Source of the DNA: Betaproteobacteria bacterium SCGC AG-212-J23
GTDB lineage: Bacteria > Pseudomonadota > Gammaproteobacteria > Burkholderiales > SG8-39
Assembly (NCBI GenBank): GCA_001644455.1
Contig: LSTF01000001.1
Span: 1-64,000 of the forward strand
Direction of reading: 5' to 3'
DNA: 64,000 nucleotides
The notes under the pieces are model-generated. The model ran no database searches and was not told the origin of the DNA. It worked only from the letters and a program-made list of their open reading frames with translations. Each line of letters starts with the position of its first letter. Position 1 is the first letter of the stretch. Below are positions 20,912 to 32,318 of the stretch, in pieces. Position numbers and translations under genes: made by a program.

Positions 20912-23464
20912 GTGCAAATCGAGAAGGGAAAGCTGTTTTCGCGGCTGGCCGAAGGCCACGCGGCGCGCATCACCGTCGTCACGCCGAACAAGCGCCTCTC
21001 GCAGGCGCTGATGCTCGAGTTCGACTCGTTTCAAATAGAGAGAAAACTGTCCGTCTGGGAGGCGCCCGACATCCTGCCGTTCGGCGCCTTCGTGCAGCGC
21101 CTCTACGAGGACGGGCTCTATTCCGATCTCTCCGCCGAGCTGCCGATGCTCCTCACGCCGGCGCAGGAAGAGGAGATCTGGAAGCAGGTCGTCGCCGGCA
21201 GCGGCCTGCTGGCCGTGGACGGAACCGCGGCGAAGTGCCGCGACGCCTGGAACCTCGCCAACCTGTGGCGCGTTCGCCCGGGCGAGAGCAACGAGGACAC
21301 CAGCGCTTTTTCCCAATGGTTGAATCACTACAAGAGAAAAATCGGCAGCGACGTCGATAGCGCGCAGCTTCCCGACCTGCTGCACAAGTTCCTGCCCGAG
21401 CTGAAGCGGCCGAAGACTGTCGTCGCCTACGCCTTCGACATCCTGCCGCCGCAGACGAAGGAATTCCTGGACGCGCTGGGAATCGAAGTTCTCTTTTCGA
21501 AGCCGACCCCTCGCGCCGGCGGCGCTTCGCGAGCGGCCTTCGACTCGCCGAAGAAGGAGCTCGAGGCCGCGGCGCAGTGGGCGAGGGCGCGGCTCGAGGC
21601 GGGCGCGACGCGGATTGGCGTTGTTTTTCCTTCTTTGCAGGAAAGGAGAAAAGAAGTCGCGCGGGTTTTCTCGCGCGTCATGGGCGATGTGAAGCCGTTC
21701 AATATCTCGATCGGCATTCCCCTGGATCGGTACCCGGTCGTCGCGCTTGCCTTGCTGGTGCTTCGCTTTTCGGAAGAGCAACTCTCCTTCGACGAGGTGA
21801 GCAGGCTGGTGCGCTCGCCCTTCATCGGCGGCGCCGAGAGCGAGCTCGGCGCGCGCATGAAGCTCGACCTGCGCCTGCGCGACAAGCTCGGCGCGACGGT
21901 GGCGCTGCCGAAGCTGATCGCTTTCCTGGACAAGAGCCTGGTCCTGAGGCAGAAGCTCGAAAAAGCCTTTGCCTTGCGCGAGACCGGGCTCTTCGCGCAG
22001 AAGACGCCGGCCGAGTGGGCGCGGCATTTCTCGGCGGTTCTCGAAGCCGCCGGCTTCCCCGGCGAGCGCCCGCTCGATTCGGACGAATTCCAGGCGCGGG
22101 CCAAGTGGCACGAGGCGCTCGGCGAGCTCTCGAAGCTGGACCGAATTTCTTCGCCGTTGCCTTTCAATGAAGTCTTCTCGATCTTGAGAAAGATTTGTGC
22201 CGACACGCTTTTCCAGCCCGAGACCCCCGACACGCCGATCCAGGTGCTGGGCCTCCTCGAGTCGGTCGGCGCGGAGTTCGACCATCTCTGGGTGACCGGC
22301 CTCACCGACGAGGCCTGGCCGCTGAAGAGCGCGCCGAATCCCTTCCTGCCGCTCGCGCCGCAGAGGAAGGCCGGCATCCCCGAGGCGAGCGCGGAGACTT
22401 CGCTCGCGCTCGACCGGCGCATCACCGACGGCTGGAAGCAGGCCGCGGGCGAAGTGGTGTTCTCGTTCTTCACCAAGGAGCAGGACCGCGACGTGCTGGC
22501 AAGCCCGCTGATCGCCGACGTCCCCGAGAAGAAGGTCGAGGTTCCCGCTTTCCCGAGACTGCGCGACTTGATCTTTGCTTCTCGAAAAGTTCAGATCATC
22601 GAAGATCGCGTCGCGCCCGCCGTTAGGGCAAAACAGATCCGCAGCGGTACCAAGGTCCTCTCCGACCAGGCGGCGTGCCCGTTCCGCGCCTTCGCGCGCC
22701 ATCGCCTCTCCGCCGAGGAGATGGAGGAGCCCGCCGACGGCCTCGACGCCTCGGAGCGCGGCAAGCTGGTGCACGAGCTGATGAGGCACCTGTGGGAACA
22801 AATAAAAAATTCAGAAGGGTTGAAAGGCGATGTTTCATCGGCCATCGAGCAAGCCGCGGCAGCCGCGGTGAAGGAACTCAAGCTCGAAGGCCGCATCGCC
22901 GAGCTCGAGCGCGCGCGCCTGGCGCGCCTCGCGCGCGAATGGCTGGAGGTCGAGAAGGCGCGTCCCGCCTTCAGTATTTTTTCCCTGGAAGAAAAACGAA
23001 CCCTCGAGTTCGCCGGCCTGGAGTTCGGCGCGCGCATCGACCGCATGGACAAGCTCGAGAGCGGCGGCCACGCGATCATCGACTACAAGACCGGCGGCAG
23101 CATCACGCCGCGGCGCTGGGACCCGCCGCGCCCCGACGAGCCGCAGCTCGCGCTCTACGCGGTGGCGGCGAAGGAGGAGATCTCCGCCGTCGCCTTCGCC
23201 AAGGTGCGTCCCGGCGAGATGCGCTTCATGGGCTACTCGCGCGACGACAAGGCGATCCCCAAGGTGCAGAAGGCGAAGGCGTGGCAGCCGCTGCTGCGCG
23301 CCTGGAAGGACGAGGCCGAGTCGCTCGGCACTTCGTTCGCGCGCGGCGACGCGGGCGTCGACCCCAAGAAGGACCTCATGACCTGCCGCTACTGCGGCCT
23401 GGAGACGCTCTGCCGCGTCTACGAGAAGATCAACGTGCTGGCGGAAGAGGAATTCGAAGAGTGA
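20912..23464 (+). CDS. AddB-like PD-(D/E)XK nuclease / inactivated helicase family DNA repair protein
   Basis: 850 aa, GTG start; GHAIIDYKTGG nuclease motif; CPFRAF ... CRYCGLETLC Fe-S-type cysteines. Confidence 0.82.
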   Translation: MQIEKGKLFSRLAEGHAARITVVTPNKRLSQALMLEFDSFQIERKLSVWEAPDILPFGAFVQRLYEDGLYSDLSAELPMLLTPAQEEEIWKQVVAGSGLLAVDGTAAKCRDAWNLANLWRVRPGESNEDTSAFSQWLNHYKRKIGSDVDSAQLPDLLHKFLPELKRPKTVVAYAFDILPPQTKEFLDALGIEVLFSKPTPRAGGASRAAFDSPKKELEAAAQWARARLEAGATRIGVVFPSLQERRKEVARVFSRVMGDVKPFNISIGIPLDRYPVVALALLVLRFSEEQLSFDEVSRLVRSPFIGGAESELGARMKLDLRLRDKLGATVALPKLIAFLDKSLVLRQKLEKAFALRETGLFAQKTPAEWARHFSAVLEAAGFPGERPLDSDEFQARAKWHEALGELSKLDRISSPLPFNEVFSILRKICADTLFQPETPDTPIQVLGLLESVGAEFDHLWVTGLTDEAWPLKSAPNPFLPLAPQRKAGIPEASAETSLALDRRITDGWKQAAGEVVFSFFTKEQDRDVLASPLIADVPEKKVEVPAFPRLRDLIFASRKVQIIEDRVAPAVRAKQIRSGTKVLSDQAACPFRAFARHRLSAEEMEEPADGLDASERGKLVHELMRHLWEQIKNSEGLKGDVSSAIEQAAAAAVKELKLEGRIAELERARLARLAREWLEVEKARPAFSIFSLEEKRTLEFAGLEFGARIDRMDKLESGGHAIIDYKTGGSITPRRWDPPRPDEPQLALYAVAAKEEISAVAFAKVRPGEMRFMGYSRDDKAIPKVQKAKAWQPLLRAWKDEAESLGTSFARGDAGVDPKKDLMTCRYCGLETLCRVYEKINVLAEEEFEE

Positions 23465-23469
23465 GCGAG

Positions 23470-26400
23470 ATGAAGGACGCCGCCCAGCGGGAACGCGCGC
23501 TCGACGTGCGCCACTCGTTCATCGTCCAGGCGCCCGCCGGCTCCGGGAAGACGGATTTGCTGGTGCGTCGCTTTCTGAAGCTGCTGGCCACGGCAAAAAA
23601 GCCGGAAGAAATCCTCGCCATCACGTTTACGAAGAAAGCCGCGGCGGAGATGCGCAAGCGCATCCTCAAAGAGCTTCCGAACTCCGCCGAGGTCGCCCAC
23701 CGCCTTCGCATCCAGACCATCGACGCTTTCTGTGCAGCCTTGACTCGTCAAGTCCCGGTGCTCGCCCGCTTCGGCGCGCAGCCCGAGATCATCGAGGACG
23801 CGCGGCCACTCTACAAGGAAGCCGCGGGGCGCGTCTTCGAGGAATTCAATCCCGCGACCGAGCGGCTGCTCGCGCACCTCGACAACAACATCCCGCTCGC
23901 CACCGACCAGCTCGCGAAGATGCTCGAGAGCCGCGACCGCTGGCTGCGCAAGACCGGCGCGGTGCCGACGCGGCAGGAGCTGGAAGCGACCCTGGTCTCC
24001 GAAAGGAATCGCCTTCTCCACAAAGCCAAGGCCCTTTACCCGAAAGCCTCGGAAGCTCTCGCGCGCGGCTTCCTGACGCAGAAGGGCGAGTGGACCAAGC
24101 GCTCCCCGCCGCCGCCCGAGTTCGTCCAGATCGCCGGCCTGCGCGAAGCGCTCTGGGCGCTCTACAACATGCCGCCGGAGAAGTACGAGGACCGGCAATG
24201 GGAGGCGCTGGAAGCGATCCTCGCGCTGCTCAAGCCCGCCGTCGCGCAGCTGAAGGTGCTGTTCGGCGAGCGCGGCCAGGCCGACTTCACCGAGTTCGCG
24301 CACGGCGCGCTCGCCGCGCTCGGCTCGGTCGACGACCCGAGCGATCTCCTGCTCTCGCTCGACCAGAAGATCTCGCACATCCTGGTCGATGAGTTCCAGG
24401 ACACTTCGCTTTCCCAATATGAATTACTTGTGAAGTTGACCTCGGGGTGGTCCGCCGACGACGGCCGCACGCTCTTCCTCGTCGGCGACCCGATGCAGTC
24501 GATCTACCGCTTCCGCGAAGCCGAGGTGTCTTTGTTTTTGCGCGCCAAGCACTCCGGCGTCGGTTCCGTTTCCCTCGAGCCGATCGAGCTCAGCACCAAC
24601 CGCCGCTCGCAGGAAGGCCTCGTCGAGTGGTTCAACGCCGCCTTCCCGCGGGTTTTACCTTCACAAGAGGATCAAACCTCCGGGGCTGTCCCGTACCTCC
24701 CCGCCACGCCCTTCGAGCCGAAGCTCGATGGCACCGCCGTGAGCTGGCACTGCGGCTATGACCGCGAAGCCGAAGCAGCCCAAGTTGTTTCAATCGTTAA
24801 ATCTTCCCCCGGGAAAAAAGCAATTCTGGTCCGCAACCGCGCCCACCTCGACGAGATCGTCCCCGCGCTCAAGGAGGCGGGCGTGCGCTTCAAGGCGCTC
24901 GACATCGAGCAGCTCGGCGAGAAGCAGGTGGTGCAGGACCTCTATGCCCTGACGCGCGCGCTCCTGCACCTCGGCGACCGCATCGCCTGGCTCGCCCTCC
25001 TCAGGGCGCCTTGGTGCGGCCTGACGCTCGCCGACCTGCTGGCCTTGTCGGTTGGCCCCCCTGACAAGGGGGGAAGCGAGTTTACGAGCGGGGGGTTTTT
25101 GGTTTTCGATCTTTTGAACGATTCCGTCCATTTGTCCCCCGACGGCTACGCCCGCGTCTCCCGCCTTCGCGATGTGCTCAAGCCGCTGATCGACAACCGC
25201 CTGCGCGGCTCCTTGCGCGAGCGCGTCGAGGGCGCGTGGCTCGCGCTCGGCGGCCCCGCGTGCGTCGAGAGCGCCACCGACCTCGAGGACGCCGAGATCT
25301 TCCTCGACGAGCTCGAGCGCCTGGAAGAGGCGGGCGAGGTCGACCTCGCCGCCCTCGAAGACCGGATCAAGGGCCGCCTCTACGCGCTCCCCGATGTCGA
25401 GGCCCCCGACGACGCGGTCGAGATCATGACCATCCACCGCGCCAAGGGTCTCGAGTTCGACCACGTGATCGTCCCCGGCCTCGACCGCCTCCCTCGTTCG
25501 GGCCCCAAACCACTTCTTGTTTGGAAGTCTTTGGTTTCTTCGGTTTTGCGCCCTGACTCGGGGGTTCGCTCGCCTCGGCCCCCTGACAAGGGGGCAGCGA
25601 ACGAAGTGAGCGGGGGTTCTCTTCTCCTCGCGCCCATCGACGAGACCGGCGCCGGCGAAGACCCGACATATAAGTATGTGCGCGAGCTCGACAAGGACGC
25701 CGACGACATCGAGTCCGGCCGCCTCTTCTACGTCGCCGCCACCCGCGCCAAGCAGCGCCTGCACCTCCTCGCCTGCGCGAAGGCAACCGAAGACCTCGCC
25801 GCCCGCGATCCCTCGAAGCGCTCCCTCCTCAGCAAGATCTGGTGGCAAGCACGCGCGCACTTCGGCCCCGCGCCCGCCGATGCGATCGCCGAACCCGAGC
25901 GCATGCCGATTCGAGATGTGTTGCAGCGGCTTCCTGCCGGCTTCGCTGTGCCAGGTGCGCCGACGTCGGTGAAGTGGAGCGCGCCGGAGGATGGACGTCA
26001 GGAAGAAGAGATCGAATTCTCATGGGCGGGCGAGACAGCGCGGCACGTCGGAACGGTGGTGCATCGGTGGCTGCAGCGAATTGCAGACGATGAGTTGCGC
26101 GAGTGGGACGTGAAGCGCGTCGATGCCCTTAGGAAGAAATTCCGTACGGAGCTCGAACGGCGTGGTGTGCCACTACGCGATATCAAAGCCTCGCTCGAGG
26201 CGGTTGGAGGTGGGCTGAAGAATGCGATTTCAGATGAGCGCGGCCGTTGGATTCTTGGTCCGCATCTAGAGGCGCGCAGCGAGCATCGCCTGCGCGTGTC
26301 GGGCAAGAACGGCGCGCGGAACTATGTCATTGATCGTCTATTCCGCGACACCTCTGGCGAACGGTGGATCGTGGACTTCAAGATCAGCAGTCACGAGGGC

Positions 26401-26538
26401 GGGGGGGTCGAGGCCTTTCTCGATGAGCAGCAAAAACGGTATGAGCCTCAACTCAACGCCTATGCGGCCTTGTTCGACCGGGCTCGCTTAGGGCTCTACT
26501 TCCCGCTTCTTCGAGGTTGGCGGCGCTGGGGCGCGTAG
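23470..26538 (+). CDS. AddA-like UvrD/Rep superfamily helicase-nuclease
   Basis: SFIVQAPAGSGKTDLLVRRFLKLL; ILVDEFQDTSLSQYELL; FLVGDPMQSIYRFREAEV; MTIHRAKGLEFDHVIVPGL; C-term RWIVDFKISSHEGG; immediately follows the addB-like gene. Confidence 0.88.
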   Translation: MKDAAQRERALDVRHSFIVQAPAGSGKTDLLVRRFLKLLATAKKPEEILAITFTKKAAAEMRKRILKELPNSAEVAHRLRIQTIDAFCAALTRQVPVLARFGAQPEIIEDARPLYKEAAGRVFEEFNPATERLLAHLDNNIPLATDQLAKMLESRDRWLRKTGAVPTRQELEATLVSERNRLLHKAKALYPKASEALARGFLTQKGEWTKRSPPPPEFVQIAGLREALWALYNMPPEKYEDRQWEALEAILALLKPAVAQLKVLFGERGQADFTEFAHGALAALGSVDDPSDLLLSLDQKISHILVDEFQDTSLSQYELLVKLTSGWSADDGRTLFLVGDPMQSIYRFREAEVSLFLRAKHSGVGSVSLEPIELSTNRRSQEGLVEWFNAAFPRVLPSQEDQTSGAVPYLPATPFEPKLDGTAVSWHCGYDREAEAAQVVSIVKSSPGKKAILVRNRAHLDEIVPALKEAGVRFKALDIEQLGEKQVVQDLYALTRALLHLGDRIAWLALLRAPWCGLTLADLLALSVGPPDKGGSEFTSGGFLVFDLLNDSVHLSPDGYARVSRLRDVLKPLIDNRLRGSLRERVEGAWLALGGPACVESATDLEDAEIFLDELERLEEAGEVDLAALEDRIKGRLYALPDVEAPDDAVEIMTIHRAKGLEFDHVIVPGLDRLPRSGPKPLLVWKSLVSSVLRPDSGVRSPRPPDKGAANEVSGGSLLLAPIDETGAGEDPTYKYVRELDKDADDIESGRLFYVAATRAKQRLHLLACAKATEDLAARDPSKRSLLSKIWWQARAHFGPAPADAIAEPERMPIRDVLQRLPAGFAVPGAPTSVKWSAPEDGRQEEEIEFSWAGETARHVGTVVHRWLQRIADDELREWDVKRVDALRKKFRTELERRGVPLRDIKASLEAVGGGLKNAISDERGRWILGPHLEARSEHRLRVSGKNGARNYVIDRLFRDTSGERWIVDFKISSHEGGGVEAFLDEQQKRYEPQLNAYAALFDRARLGLYFPLLRGWRRWGA
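25055..25100. repeat. In-frame palindromic repeat copy 1 in the addA-like gene
   Basis: gccccc ctgacaag gggggaagcgagtttacgagcggggggttttt, encodes PPDKGGSEFTSGGF. Confidence 0.6.
25578..25620. repeat. In-frame palindromic repeat copy 2 in the addA-like gene
   Basis: gccccctgacaagggggcagcgaacgaagtgagcgggggttct, encodes PPDKGAANEVSGGS. Confidence 0.6.
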
Positions 26539-26963
26539 TCCCAACGATTGGTCGTGGTGCGTGCGGAAACAATCGTGAGCACAGTGCTGCACGCTTTGGC
26601 CAGGTTTCGATCGATCTCGTGTTCCCAAATGCGGATGACACCCCATCCATTCGATCGTAGCCACCGAGATACCTTCCGGTCTCTTTTCTTATTGGCTAGA
26701 AGTTTTGTCTTCCAAAACGCCCTACGCAACTTCGGCATGACGTAATGCTGCGGGCACCCGTGCCAAAAGCATCCGTCCACGAAGATCGCGACTCGGGCAC
26801 CCGGAATGACAAGGTCCGGCCTGCCCAGAATGGAATTCTTGATCCGATAGCGCACTCCACACGCCCACAAGGCTTTTCGGAACACAACCTCTAGTCTGGT
26901 GTCACGCCCGCGATTCCGCGACATGCAGTAGGCACGTTGCGCGGGTGAAAGAACATCAGCCAC
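26496..26963 (-). CDS. vsr: Very short patch repair endonuclease (Vsr)
   Basis: MADVLSPAQRAYCMSRNRGRDTRLEVVFRKALWACGVRYR..GRPDLVIPGARVAIFVDGCFWHGCPQH. Confidence 0.95.
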   Translation of the reverse strand: MADVLSPAQRAYCMSRNRGRDTRLEVVFRKALWACGVRYRIKNSILGRPDLVIPGARVAIFVDGCFWHGCPQHYVMPKLRRAFWKTKLLANKKRDRKVSRWLRSNGWGVIRIWEHEIDRNLAKACSTVLTIVSARTTTNRWDYAPQRRQPRRSGK

Positions 26964-26978
26964 CGCACATCCTTGCGC

Positions 26979-28085
26979 TTATTCGGTCTCGACAACTACC
27001 TCGAGAGGCGTTTCGGCTGCAAAGGTTAAAGTCCGCGGGTCTACGGATATGGCATCCGCCTCAACACCTTTTGGTAGATTCGTGAGGACCTTAAGCACGC
27101 CTTCGGCAAAAGCCTTCATGGGACCAGAGACGCGGAGTTTCGCTTGGCGCTCCACGATTCCGTAGACGCGAAAGATGCGATAGTCCGTCGAGTCGCGCAT
27201 CTCCAGCAGTTCAGCGATGGAGATGTGAAGAGGGTTTTCGAAAGGTCCTCTGGTCGTCTTCACGTCAACTAACTGGTTGGCAGCCTTCTCGCGGATTTCA
27301 AAGTCAAAGGGCATGATCGCGTTGTCCCGCGACGCCCATGTGAACGCCTCGATCCTGCCGGCCCCTAATTCGCGGGTGAGGTGGTCATTCACGAATTCCT
27401 CTCCAAGCGCTCCAATCTCCTCCGCCTTCTGTCGCGCCTGTTGTAGCTCTTCCTTGGAAATGCGCCTCAACCCAGACCGTCGCTTGAGCTCGCGCATTCC
27501 TTTCGCGCCACCGACTGCAGCGTCCTCGAGGGACGACTCCAACGAAGCTCCGGCGATTGGGAACGAGGCGAGAAGTCCCTGGTGATTGAGGAGGATGTCC
27601 AAGTCAACCGGACTAATTTCGGACATCCGCCGCGACCCGAGGTGGCGATCGAACGCGGCGTGGAGCTTTGCGTCCAGCGCTTGGGACACGAGCGCTATGC
27701 GCATTGAATCTGGAAAGTGCTGTCCCGTGAATTCAAGAAGAGCAATGTCGCCCTCTCTAAGGGTGTTGAACCTATCGGGCGATTCAGGGGGGTTAAAAAT
27801 GAACTCGCCGTTCAAGCGCCAGTTCTTGTATTCACCTAGCTTGATGATCTTGCGCTGCAGGTTTAGACGTGGCGCGGGTCCCGGACCGTAAATGTCCAAG
27901 TCGACTGCAAACTTGCCTGCTCGGCTTTTCGCTTCGTCTGGCATGGCAGGAAACAGCAGTTCGACGAGCACATCAGCGTTCAGATTGATCGCCTTTTGGT
28001 TCCCTGCGTTCACATGTCGGAACTGCCATTCAAACAACGTTAGGTCTGAGCGGGTCAGTCGCTTGAGCGCCAGCTTCTTGTGCAT
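26979..28085 (-). CDS. DUF3883-like PD-(D/E)XK protein, candidate restriction endonuclease
   Basis: C-term EEIGALGEEFVNDHL...MPFDFEIREKAANQLVDVKTTRGPFENPLHIS resembles DUF3883/Mrr-like nuclease core; sits between vsr and a C5 MTase. Confidence 0.7.
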   Translation of the reverse strand: MHKKLALKRLTRSDLTLFEWQFRHVNAGNQKAINLNADVLVELLFPAMPDEAKSRAGKFAVDLDIYGPGPAPRLNLQRKIIKLGEYKNWRLNGEFIFNPPESPDRFNTLREGDIALLEFTGQHFPDSMRIALVSQALDAKLHAAFDRHLGSRRMSEISPVDLDILLNHQGLLASFPIAGASLESSLEDAAVGGAKGMRELKRRSGLRRISKEELQQARQKAEEIGALGEEFVNDHLTRELGAGRIEAFTWASRDNAIMPFDFEIREKAANQLVDVKTTRGPFENPLHISIAELLEMRDSTDYRIFRVYGIVERQAKLRVSGPMKAFAEGVLKVLTNLPKGVEADAISVDPRTLTFAAETPLEVVVETE

Positions 28086-29551
28086 TAGTGGAGGCCCAGA
28101 CCGGTCTTGAAAGTCATTGCTATCCGATAGGCGAGCAGCGGGGGGACTGCATTGCCGATCTGGCGGAACGCTGGATTCATGGTCCCGGCAAAAGCGAAGC
28201 CATCAGGGAAGGACTGCAACCTAGCCGCCTCACGAACGGAGATGGTGCGGGCTTGGCTGCTGTCGTAGTGGATATGGGAATAACTGTCCTTGCCCAAGTG
28301 AGCCATGAGTGTTCGAGCAGGCTTGTTCCGCTCCATCTTTCGCCACTTGTTCGGAAACTTCCCCGGATCATAGGGCGGGACGATCGAACGCTTGACCCGC
28401 TCATACTCGGCGCTTCCCTCGCGTATACGCTTTCCGTTTCTTCGCATCGCCTTCAACTTTGCTTCAAAAAGGTCCAATGCGTGGCGGTGAGCAGCCGGAT
28501 ACTCGTCACCCGCATTCATCTTGCTGAAGATTTGGTAGTCGCGTGGGAGCGATCTGATCACGTGGTCTAACACACCGCCATTCGCTTCAAATCCCGGCCA
28601 CTCTCGCATCTGGCGAGCGAAATCGGACAGTGGCTTCTTCTTCGGGTATGGAACTAGCTGAGTAAAGCGGCGAGCGCCCCTCTTGAGACCGCCATTCAAG
28701 TGCTCTGTAATGGAGGGCAAGTCAGAGATTGCGTCATACGCGGTTACCGCCGGAAGCAACGAGTCCTTCTCGGGCTCAGGAGGCGGAGTGTAGAACTGGT
28801 CCTGGTCGAACAAATCGTTGCGGAGCGTCTGAAGAGCTACTTGCCGCGAGCTCACATAGCCCCGCGGTAGTTCGATGTAGTTGAGTGGATTGGGAAATGC
28901 TGGTTCGGCTTTGAGTGATTCGTGATAGGCGATGAGGAACATGCGCTCCCGCATTTCTGGAACGCCATAGAAGACTGAATTTAGTAGCGTGTACCGACAC
29001 TCATATCCAAGATCCGCAAGCGTCTCGCATATCTCCTCAGCGATGTTGTGCCCTCCGTAGTTGAGTACATCAGGCACGTTTTCCATGAGAAGTGCCAAAG
29101 GCTGGAGTTCACGCACATAGTGCAGATAGCGTAGGTAGAGGTTGCTTCGCGGGTCCAACTTGAACGCCCGCGGATGCTCCAACACTTCACGAAGCTTTGC
29201 GCGGCCAACCCTCGCAAACGCTTGGCAAGGAGGGCCGCCAACAATTACGTCAACGACGCGTTCAGGTGGTTCCTGATGGCCGTGTTCCCTAAGGAAGTCC
29301 GCCGGCTCAGTCGATGTTATGTCTCGAGCTCTGGCGTGGATGTCCCTGATGTGCTTTGGCGCTTCCCGACTGAAATTCAGAGCGTGAGACTGCGCGGCAT
29401 GTGGATCAAACTCCACTGCGCCGACTAGCTCAAAGCCGGCCCGATGAAATCCAAGCGAAATGCCGCCGCAACCGGCGAAAAGGTCTACGAGTCTCGGTCT
29501 GCCGCCAGCTTCTAGTCGAGCGATCTTTTGTCTGATCGTCTTGTTCAGCAC
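28085..29551 (-). CDS. DNA (cytosine-5) methyltransferase
   Basis: LVDLFAGCGGISLGFHRAGF, VIVGGPPCQAFARVG, LLMENVPDVL, RTISVREAARLQSFPDGF, RQIGNAVPPLLA. Confidence 0.96.
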   Translation of the reverse strand: MLNKTIRQKIARLEAGGRPRLVDLFAGCGGISLGFHRAGFELVGAVEFDPHAAQSHALNFSREAPKHIRDIHARARDITSTEPADFLREHGHQEPPERVVDVIVGGPPCQAFARVGRAKLREVLEHPRAFKLDPRSNLYLRYLHYVRELQPLALLMENVPDVLNYGGHNIAEEICETLADLGYECRYTLLNSVFYGVPEMRERMFLIAYHESLKAEPAFPNPLNYIELPRGYVSSRQVALQTLRNDLFDQDQFYTPPPEPEKDSLLPAVTAYDAISDLPSITEHLNGGLKRGARRFTQLVPYPKKKPLSDFARQMREWPGFEANGGVLDHVIRSLPRDYQIFSKMNAGDEYPAAHRHALDLFEAKLKAMRRNGKRIREGSAEYERVKRSIVPPYDPGKFPNKWRKMERNKPARTLMAHLGKDSYSHIHYDSSQARTISVREAARLQSFPDGFAFAGTMNPAFRQIGNAVPPLLAYRIAMTFKTGLGLH

Positions 29552-29702
29552 TATCTAAATCCCTTGGCCCTCTTCTTGTTGACCCTACTACCGTGCCCAG
29601 ACGAGATGCATGAATAAATATACACCAGGACGCTGTCGCCGGAGCGGTGCTTTGGCAGCCGAAACCTACTGACTTAAGCTATCCGCCAACAAAGGGGGGC
29701 GT

Positions 29703-30941
29703 ATGGCTCGGCTCGTGGACTTTGGGAGCATTCTGGACAAGAAGAAGGAGGGGAATAGCACCTGTTATCTGGTTCGATCAAGCCTCAAGCGCTACCTCGC
29801 GGCTTTGCCGGAGGAGTTCGGTGACTACCAGATTCAGCGGGAGGTGGTTACCAATGTATATCTTGATGAGCTGGTCAAGACAGTCCTGAAGTGCGGACAC
29901 ATTCCGCCGTTGGTATTGATCGGGGAGGGAGCTCTAGCGAACAACGGCGAATTAAGACTTGCGCGGTTCCGAATCCTTGACGGACTGCAGAGGACCGTTC
30001 GGCTGAAAGCGATACACGACGCCGCGGACCTACTAAGCGAGCACGATAACGATGTCAATCATGCGCGAAAGATTGCACGGGAGAGGCTCGCTAAGACAGG
30101 CTCAGAACGTCTCGTTGAAATCGGCGCCTCTCAGGGTCTCTTTACTGCACTTGCGGAATTTGTGAAGAAACACAGCGAGGCGGACCTTAACGCTGTGTTT
30201 GAAAGCAGTCAGTGGTTTGAGATCTGGACCGATTTGGGCACGGAAGAGCAGATCCGAAAAATGCTGGTGCTCAACGCGGGCCATAAGCCAGTAAGGACAC
30301 GTCATCAATTAGAGCTTCTCTTCTTGAACGTCCTACCAAAGTTGAAAGGGGCGTCTAAACGAGAGATTTCGGTGGTGAGGGAAAAAGAGCGCAGTGCTAT
30401 CTTTTTTGCGAAATCCCGGAAGAAAGGCCAATTTCATTTCGCTGAGTTGATAGCAGCGCTAATCGCGATGTCGGAAGGCGAGCCGGTCACCACCAATCCT
30501 GCGCTCATCACTGATATTCAGAACGGCGAACTCAAGGACGGCCTTGCTTCGTGCCTCAGGGAAGAGGTCCTCGCATCGTTTGTCGACACACTGGTGGCGC
30601 TTGAGGATGCCGCGCTAAAGGACTCAGAGAAATACGGAGTGCAGTGGGTGGGGCGCGAAGTCGTGTTGGTTGGCCTATTTGCTGCCGTTGGACACTACGC
30701 TAATCGCAAGGGTGTCAGTTTTGAGAAAGGGATGGAGCGGTTGCAGAAGCGGCTCGCAAGGACGGGATGGCTAAAGCTCTCGGAGTTTGAGAAAGAGCGC
30801 AACTCTCAGGACTTGGCAAAGGTCAACATTGGCACCGTGAACAAGCGCGCTGTATTTCGGGCGTTTAGCAATGCGTTAGATGCCGAAGCAGAAGCTCCGG
30901 AGGCAGTCAAATGGGGCAGACTGTTTAGGGAGCCTGCCTAA
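29703..30941 (+). CDS. Uncharacterised ParB/Srx-fold-like protein (DGQHR/DUF262/DndB-type motif)
   Basis: FRILDGLQRTVRLKAIHDA resembles DGQ(H/Q)R motif; LNAGHKPVRTRHQLELL resembles the second conserved segment; strong SD (aaggggggcgtATG). Confidence 0.6.
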   Translation: MARLVDFGSILDKKKEGNSTCYLVRSSLKRYLAALPEEFGDYQIQREVVTNVYLDELVKTVLKCGHIPPLVLIGEGALANNGELRLARFRILDGLQRTVRLKAIHDAADLLSEHDNDVNHARKIARERLAKTGSERLVEIGASQGLFTALAEFVKKHSEADLNAVFESSQWFEIWTDLGTEEQIRKMLVLNAGHKPVRTRHQLELLFLNVLPKLKGASKREISVVREKERSAIFFAKSRKKGQFHFAELIAALIAMSEGEPVTTNPALITDIQNGELKDGLASCLREEVLASFVDTLVALEDAALKDSEKYGVQWVGREVVLVGLFAAVGHYANRKGVSFEKGMERLQKRLARTGWLKLSEFEKERNSQDLAKVNIGTVNKRAVFRAFSNALDAEAEAPEAVKWGRLFREPA

Positions 30942-32318
30942 ATGGCCAACCCCAGTGTCAATTCACTCCTCAAGCGGCGAATAAAGGAGTTGTCGTCCCT
31001 CGCGGTAACACCGCCGAAGGGCCTGCCCACATATTGGGGCCGCAAAGGTATGTCAGTTGAAGCGAAAGCAGCTGTCGGCTCTCTGCAAGCCGCGCTGCAG
31101 GACCTGTCAGTTGGATCTTCCATGGAACTCGTGGAATTGGTAGTCAAGCTGCTGGATGACTGCGAGCGGGTTGGGCGGCCAATTCCACATGGCTATCACG
31201 CTGCGGCGTTGCTCGCGGCGCGACTCGTCAAGAAAGTCGGACAGTCTGTCAAAGACGGGTCGCTTCCAGGGACCACATCCGTTGCGAAGGGCAAGGTCAT
31301 TGCCTTCAAGCAAGCAATCTTGAACGAGTCATTTGTGTTTGTTGATCCCTCCAGCGCGGCGAGGAATCTCTCCTACTTGGACCTGCAGTATTCGGTAGAC
31401 AAACGGAAATCGTTGGACGTAGCGATCGACTCAACTCCCGAAGTATTACTGTTGATTGCGCTAGCGGGAGTGAAGCCGCTCGAGCGTATTGAAGCACCTT
31501 TTCTGGCGTTGGTGGGTGATGCAATTACTGGCGATGCCGCTCATGTAGCTGCGCTGGCGCGCTTCTACCGACTGGCTCGCGGCCAGATATTTCACGCAAC
31601 CAACGAATACAAGCGCAAGAGTGATCCAGTCGCGGCGACAAACCTCGATATTGCGGTTGACTACTCGCAATTCGAAGATGTGGCCTATGTGATGAGTGAG
31701 GCAAACGAGAAGCAAGACGTTCTTGATAGGTTCCTGCGTCTCTACCAAGTGCTCGAAAACTTCATGATACGAAGGGTAGTCGCGAAGTTAGCTAACGCCA
31801 CACCCGGGCGGGTGTTCTCCCTCCGGGATTTTCGGGGGCTCTATAAGAGCTTTATCGACGGCGAAATCAAAACCCTATCGAACCTATTTGGGGAGGCACT
31901 GAAGATTGCCGTTCCAGCGAGTGCGCCGGGCGGTCCGCATGCCGACCTTGAAGCTTACATTCGATACCTCTGGCACTCGGGTCTGCCGCATGCATCCATG
32001 CATGCGGACCTTGAGGTCCTTCTGGACCGTATCGATCCTGGTGGAGGATACAAGCCCATAAATAGTTTCCACTCGCAGCTAGATGGGCGGAAGTTCGCGA
32101 GACTGATTTATGCGGTCAGGAACTCCATCGTTCATAACAAGGAGACGGAGTTTCATCTGACACACAAGACGTTGACGCCCGCGCTTGTCATATTGATGAA
32201 CGAGGTTCTCTTTCCCGCACTCGAAGAGATGATCTTTTCATGTGTGTGTGCGCCGACACCGGGGAACTTCGTTCGCTATGACCACCGTCAAATGGCTCTC
32301 TACGAAAGGATCGCCTAG
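30942..32318 (+). CDS. Uncharacterised protein with C-terminal HEPN-like motif
   Basis: 458 aa; FARLIYAVRNSIVHNKETEFHLT (Rx4H at residue 393); starts immediately after the previous stop. Confidence 0.6.
   Translation: MANPSVNSLLKRRIKELSSLAVTPPKGLPTYWGRKGMSVEAKAAVGSLQAALQDLSVGSSMELVELVVKLLDDCERVGRPIPHGYHAAALLAARLVKKVGQSVKDGSLPGTTSVAKGKVIAFKQAILNESFVFVDPSSAARNLSYLDLQYSVDKRKSLDVAIDSTPEVLLLIALAGVKPLERIEAPFLALVGDAITGDAAHVAALARFYRLARGQIFHATNEYKRKSDPVAATNLDIAVDYSQFEDVAYVMSEANEKQDVLDRFLRLYQVLENFMIRRVVAKLANATPGRVFSLRDFRGLYKSFIDGEIKTLSNLFGEALKIAVPASAPGGPHADLEAYIRYLWHSGLPHASMHADLEVLLDRIDPGGGYKPINSFHSQLDGRKFARLIYAVRNSIVHNKETEFHLTHKTLTPALVILMNEVLFPALEEMIFSCVCAPTPGNFVRYDHRQMALYERIA

Follow-up and report, generated by a model that had tools for sequence, protein, structure and literature searches.

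The Gene Pair and Its Surroundings

The window, that is, the whole stretch of 64,000 nucleotides analyzed here (contig LSTF01000001.1 of Betaproteobacteria bacterium SCGC AG-212-J23), carries on its forward strand two intact genes, each starting with ATG, which abut with zero gap (30941/30942). Gene 1 (dzbA-like; 29703-30941) encodes a protein of 412 aa and ends with a TAA stop codon at 30939-30941, while gene 2 (dzbB-like; 30942-32318) encodes a protein of 458 aa; a single copy of gene 1 is present in the genome to which the window belongs (2.06 Mb, 60% complete). The first-pass annotation had described two adjacent open reading frames, a strong Shine-Dalgarno sequence before the first of them, and two motifs in its product. 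Both reading frames are confirmed, and so is the presence of ILDGLQRTVRL and LNAGHKPVRTRHQL in the gene 1 protein. The purine run AAAGGGGGG is indeed Shine-Dalgarno-like, but its spacing is short, with only 3 nt to the ATG.

Three genes linked to restriction-modification (R-M) lie on the reverse strand next to the pair: a C5-cytosine DNA methyltransferase (C5-MTase; 28085-29551; PF00145, 9.2e-59), which is divergent from dzbA; a probable restriction nuclease (26979-28085); and a Vsr mismatch endonuclease (26496-26963; TIGR00632, 4.7e-38). The nuclease has no Pfam match of its own, and was considered a DUF3883 relative based on 36% identity to a DUF3883-annotated protein, encoded on an Azospirillum plasmid where it adjoins a related MTase. 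The R-M genes and the pair, taken over both strands, form a block (26496-32318) with a GC content of 0.550, compared to 0.675 in the rest of the window (SD of 0.023 when the latter is divided into 1.3-kb chunks). This common low GC gives them the appearance of one acquired segment, and the pair was probably acquired together with the m5C R-M system in this genome. Directly upstream of the block, reading frames of UvrD-type helicase-nuclease and PD-(D/E)XK-like character were observed at 22675-26538 and 20912-23464, which resemble addA/addB when judged by a look at the sequence only.

Relationship to Dazbog

Searches with the PADLOC models identified gene 1 as DzbA (PDLC03835, 1.3e-32) and gene 2 as DzbB (PDLC03836, 4.9e-15), in the gene order of the antiphage system Dazbog; both matches are given here by E-value, and the gene 2 protein covers positions 193-324 of the 341 in the DzbB model (39%). 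No match to either protein was obtained in NCBIfam, no significant one in Pfam, and sequence searches of the PDB were likewise negative for both. For further comparison, we use the term PADLOC-model type for the Bacilli pairs matched by the DzbA model (with up to 481 bits) together with a shorter DzbB of 367-374 aa. In hhalign, the DzbA profile of the window clade aligned with DzbA of the PADLOC-model type at 99.9% (E 5e-33), and the C-terminal domain of window-clade DzbB with DzbB of that type at 95.2% (E 2.6e-8). Moreover, in a maximum likelihood tree, DzbA from the window falls into a clade of 24 rows, split from the PADLOC-model type with a support of 100/100 and by 3.2 changes per column. 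Its rows represent Pseudomonadota, Bacillota, Campylobacterota and Thermodesulfobacteriota, and some of them sit on long branches of uncertain placement.

As judged by these profiles and this tree, the window pair is a divergent branch of Dazbog, a known antiphage system, and belongs to a cross-phylum clade. The earlier description of the pair as an uncharacterized, candidate new module must consequently be abandoned, since models for a named system match both proteins and the pair groups with that system, while the idea of a two-gene defence unit is upheld. The pair resembles Dazbog (Millman et al. 2022) in its two genes and their order, in the motifs DG(L/M)QR and LN(A/T)G of DzbA, and in Y-x3-E and R-x4-H of DzbB. 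On the other hand, most DzbB proteins of the window clade have approximately 450 aa, compared with 367-374 aa in the PADLOC-model type, and the clade carries an HNKETEFH signature; window-clade DzbA reaches only about 110 bits, whereas the best Bacilli DzbA found scores 481. What is new is not Dazbog, already described, but the repeated attachment of this divergent clade to DNA-modification genes of different kinds.

Gene Pairing and Distribution

The association of the two genes is strict. When GTDB species genomes were scanned with gene 2 alone, a DzbA relative was located directly upstream, on the same strand, in 15/15 bacterial loci. A scan of genome contigs with gene 1 alone returned no relatives, as its peptide patterns were too specific. 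The only plasmid match for DzbA, on a Priestia plasmid, shows the same arrangement, as do five of the six loci that gene 1 detected on viral contigs, the sixth stopping at the contig edge. The neighbourhood check thus agrees with the expectation that homologues of the two proteins co-occur. DzbAB is found at low frequency: it was detected in 2/387 genomes of the window's class, in 7/401 genomes when a class sample centred on Bacilli was examined, and in 3/298 genomes from the order around Rhizobium, of which two group in the tree with the PADLOC-model type. On three IMG/VR contigs (L022, 1-3997; L025, 6790-10597; L026, 7989-12044), DzbAB lies beside integrase-like genes, which means that prophage-like elements carry the pair as well.

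Conserved Features of DzbA

Two blocks stand out in DzbA. The DGLQR motif (residues 93-97; 29979-29993, forward strand) is part of a stretch in which L92, D93, G94, L95, Q96 and R97, as well as R100, are invariant across 22 DzbA sequences. The second DUF262-type block, LNAGHKPVRTRHQL (residues 190-203; 30270-30311, forward strand), has L190, N191, A192, G193, K195, H201 and Q202 invariant in 22/22, and reads LNTGQTPMSIRHQL in DzbA of the PADLOC-model type. Since the 22 relatives show little or no variation in LDGLQR and LNAG(H)K, the motifs noted in gene 1 are not due to chance. These are candidate counterparts of the DUF262 blocks, with DGLQR taking the place of DGQQR, the motif that makes up the nucleotide pocket of GmrS and that SspE has kept (PMC10952713).

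Pfam PF03235 scores the gene 1 protein at 13.8, under the gathering score of 33.2, and GmrSD_N is matched by 7/22 DzbA relatives at E <= 0.01. In hhalign, DzbA aligned with a profile of 23 DUF262 proteins at 85.8%, over the DGxQR block, while negative controls against HEPN sets gave 0.4-0.7%. An AlphaFold2 model of DzbA (pLDDT 85.8) was compared to known structures by Foldseek: BrxU (the best), Noc and PadC, all of them DUF262 or ParB-type proteins, were among the top ten, but none of the matches was significant (best E 0.11). With a profile match of this kind and controls below 1%, the gene 1 protein is probably related to DUF262/ParB-Srx proteins, as the first-pass annotation had proposed, and the ParB/Srx assignment is likely. 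DzbA is predicted to consist of a DUF262/GmrSD_N-like (ParB/Srx-type) N-terminal half and a helical C-terminal half, and to act as a sensor/NTPase.

Candidate RNase Site of DzbB

The DzbB relatives gathered in alignment A4 are merely 18-26% identical overall to the gene 2 protein, and yet E272, R393 and H398 are shared without exception by the DzbB sequences compared (29/29), a set spanning both Dazbog branches, with the PADLOC-model type included; the motif in gene 2 is therefore not a chance occurrence. An R-x4-H motif alone would be uninformative, because the same protein contains a second one, RGQIFH, by chance. E272 belongs to a Y268-x3-E272 motif (31743-31757, forward strand; Y268 in 28/29) within a long helix predicted by AlphaFold2 at residues 260-286, and R393-x4-H398 is continuous with the HNKETEFH clade signature (residues 393-405; 32118-32156, forward strand), in which N399 is found in 23/29 sequences, K400 in 24/29, E401 in 24/29, T402 in 23/29 and E403 in 25/29. 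The first-pass annotation had stated that gene 2 ends with an Rx4H motif typical of HEPN RNases: the numbering of R393 and H398 was right and the HEPN-type motif is strictly conserved, but it lies 54 aa from the C-terminus.

The AlphaFold2 model of DzbB (pLDDT 77.7) is helical, with R393 and H398 at a helix end and E272 within an earlier long helix. HEPN domains have the same layout, with the arginine and histidine at a helix end and a polar residue on an earlier helix. The combination by which HEPN sequences are recognized, R-x4-6-H (R393, H398) plus an acidic residue of an earlier helix (E272), is present in 29/29 sequences. This strongly suggests that E272, R393 and H398 form a HEPN RNase site, E272 being the candidate for its third conserved polar residue, and DzbB is accordingly predicted from its sequence to be a HEPN-type RNase effector. 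Foldseek searches of PDB and BFVD with the DzbB model gave no HEPN match and no solved-structure match. Comparison of DzbB with HEPN families in hhalign was negative, but that test has no power, since a HEPN-HEPN control (PF18735 against DUF4145) was equally negative. The alignments behind both structure models were built from the recovered loci, with the plasmid-database row left out.

Modification Genes in the Neighbourhood of DzbAB

We then focused on the genomic contexts in which relatives of the pair occur. In another genome of the window's class (L050; 5840-15003, minus strand), a type I R-M operon harbours DzbAB, with the minus-strand order hsdR, hsdS, dzbA, dzbB, a small ORF and hsdM. 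In a Campylobacterales MAG (L015) and in L017, the phosphorothioation genes sspB, sspC and sspD stand in a row, and dzbA starts 12-15 nt behind the last of them; next to DzbAB, on the far side, is the gene of a GHKL-type ATPase with approximately 820 aa (L015, 1404-8747; L017, 1255-8747). PADLOC supports these assignments with 1.2e-76 for SspB (L015), 1.5e-129 and 2.5e-137 for SspC, and 2.2e-93 and 2.9e-91 for SspD (in the two loci). No DUF1524 protein was detected in either genome, an absence that is provisional as both are MAG records. With SspBCD present and DUF1524 not detectable, DzbAB occupies the position in which one would expect the effector SspE. Homologues of SspB, SspC and SspD occur in type-4 BREX too (PMC12839542), but at these loci BrxP scores far below the SspD models, and the stretch holds no further recognizable BREX gene.

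A third context is that of Rhizobium and Ensifer (L018-L020), where a C5-MTase is divergent from dzbA, as in the window. Between the window and the Rhizobium locus L018, the MTases are 59% identical, whereas the DzbA proteins are only 38% identical, and in the tree rhizobial DzbA and that of the window do not form sister groups; the modules were thus probably joined separately. Overall, a C5-MTase was found within 8 kb of DzbAB in 6/18 genomes, where random placement expects 0.18; this model ignores defence-island clustering and relatedness, but with only four independent cases counted it still gives P ~3e-5. Nevertheless, no modification gene is recognizable near the majority of DzbAB loci, so the coupling is not obligatory. 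The MTase in particular was discarded as an obligatory partner, given that most loci lack it and that the 21 plasmids with relatives of the window MTase do not include the Priestia plasmid, the only one with DzbA. The proposed co-inheritance with the Vsr-nuclease-MTase block is therefore sustained only in part: the shared low-GC block and the rhizobial loci, with the same MTase family divergent from DzbAB, speak for it, while the majority of loci and the plasmid distribution speak against it.

In three further loci (L058, L059 and L060), relatives of the window MTase occur with Vsr and with varied restriction partners (DUF2357, Z1/PD-(D/E)XK and DUF3883), from which the C5-MTase family appears to be itself a shuffling module. 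Separately, a RloC-like AAA protein, recognized by eye, is encoded a few genes downstream of DzbAB in L012 (11126-13366), an island that possibly holds two HEPN-type effectors.

Comparison with Other Defence Systems

PD-T4-2 (Vassallo et al. 2022) unites a DUF262 protein with a HEPN protein, the composition predicted for DzbAB, its HEPN protein being of the PF18735 family (PMC10952713), but the gene 2 protein has no Pfam match to PF18735 and only 0.6% in hhalign. Genes for ParB and DNA-methylase proteins adjoin those of the MAE_28990 HEPN family (Anantharaman et al. 2013, PMC3710099), which shares with DzbAB, where HEPN is a prediction, the placement of a HEPN gene beside a DUF262/ParB gene, sometimes with a C5-MTase too; its HEPN protein differs in having approximately 220-235 aa, and a direct relation to DzbB was dismissed, as no profile similarity exists. 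Pairs of a PF18737 (MAE_28990) HEPN gene and a DUF262 gene were also seen in L056 (1-2193), behind a C5-MTase fragment, and in L057 (1462-3224), and are a second, separate DUF262+HEPN pair family. The phosphorothioation effectors SspE and DndI, which combine DUF262 and DUF1524, resemble DzbAB in their DUF262-type reader and in the position of DzbAB behind sspD in two genomes; in DzbAB, however, the predicted HEPN-type effector is a separate gene and there is no DUF1524. In line with this, no PF07510 match (DUF1524, HNH), as in GmrSD, SspE or BrxU, is reported in the DzbA or DzbB families. PrrC and RloC, HEPN anticodon nucleases linked to R-M, are similar in having a HEPN-type RNase, predicted in DzbAB, at an R-M locus, as in the hsd operon of L050, but DzbAB has a DUF262 partner instead of an ABC-type ATPase.

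Proposed Mechanism and Alternative Explanations

According to reviews, disrupting the DUF262 gene abolishes Dazbog protection (PMC10952713), phage methylases activate Dazbog by a mechanism that was left unclear (PMC12409349), and in SspE the DUF262 domain is a phosphorothioate reader by which a nuclease is gated (PMC10952713). On balance, we favour a model in which DzbA, in response to DNA modification or to a phage methylase, sets the DzbB RNase free, leading to abortive infection. DzbA would be a nucleotide-binding protein of the ParB/Srx fold (DUF262-type), whose probable role is to detect DNA modification, or to react to a modification enzyme of the phage, and thereby to control DzbB. Upon sensing of phage modification or of modification failure, DzbB would be released and, as a HEPN-type endoRNase (E272/R393/H398), would cut RNA, so that growth of the infected cell stops. 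In the window genome, DzbAB may be functionally coupled to the MTase as a second line behind m5C R-M. PrrC and RloC follow such a logic, as a backup behind modification-based defence (PMC3710099), and by analogy a backup role of the same kind is the simplest reading for DzbAB. Nevertheless, a host MTase beside a methylation-triggered killer counts against the model, which needs a rule for distinguishing self from non-self.

A serious competitor, to which we give somewhat less than an even chance, is that Dazbog stands alone and senses a phage protein or a replication intermediate, its proximity to R-M genes reflecting defence-island clustering only. The plasmids would fit, with 21 carrying MTase relatives and the single DzbA plasmid not among them; so would the prophage-like contigs L022 and L026, which have adjoining integrases and no modification gene seen nearby, and the probable separate joining of modules that the window and rhizobial loci suggest. 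However, insertion in a type I R-M operon and a position 12-15 nt behind SspBCD, with no detectable DUF1524, are tighter than island clustering, and the literature links Dazbog activation to phage methylases (PMC10952713, PMC12409349).

Alternatively, DzbAB could be a toxin-antitoxin module, with an RNase toxin, DzbB, neutralized by DzbA and freed by any disturbance of DzbA or of its expression. Such modules commonly contain HEPN toxins (PMC3710099), and the strict two-gene pairing and the antitoxin-first order agree with this, but a nucleotide-binding-type protein of 412 aa is atypical of small antitoxins and functional equivalence with Dazbog is more specific, which makes the explanation unlikely. 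Less probable still is a Type IV-like restriction system in which DzbA itself acts on modified phage DNA, in the manner of GmrSD or BrxU, with DzbB as an accessory: the DUF262 relation of DzbA and BrxU as its best structural neighbour would be accounted for, but a DUF1524/HNH domain is reported for neither protein and the invariant residues of DzbB are an RNase-type R-x4-H and E.

This clade makes the triggering of Dazbog by methylases testable: its DzbB has a candidate catalytic triad that does not vary, its DzbA has a candidate nucleotide site, and operons found in nature join DzbAB to known modification enzymes that can be switched on and off, namely SspBCD, type I R-M and a C5-MTase. What makes it worth following is its attachment to three chemically different modification systems, above all to SspBCD without a detectable SspE-type nuclease. 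A bolder possibility, which we regard as doubtful, is that the clade represents a portable modification-gated RNase effector, pluggable into m5C, type I m6A and phosphorothioate systems, that replaces the DNA-nicking SspE in Ssp loci. If true, modification by Ssp would be combined in these loci with a restriction arm that degrades RNA rather than DNA.
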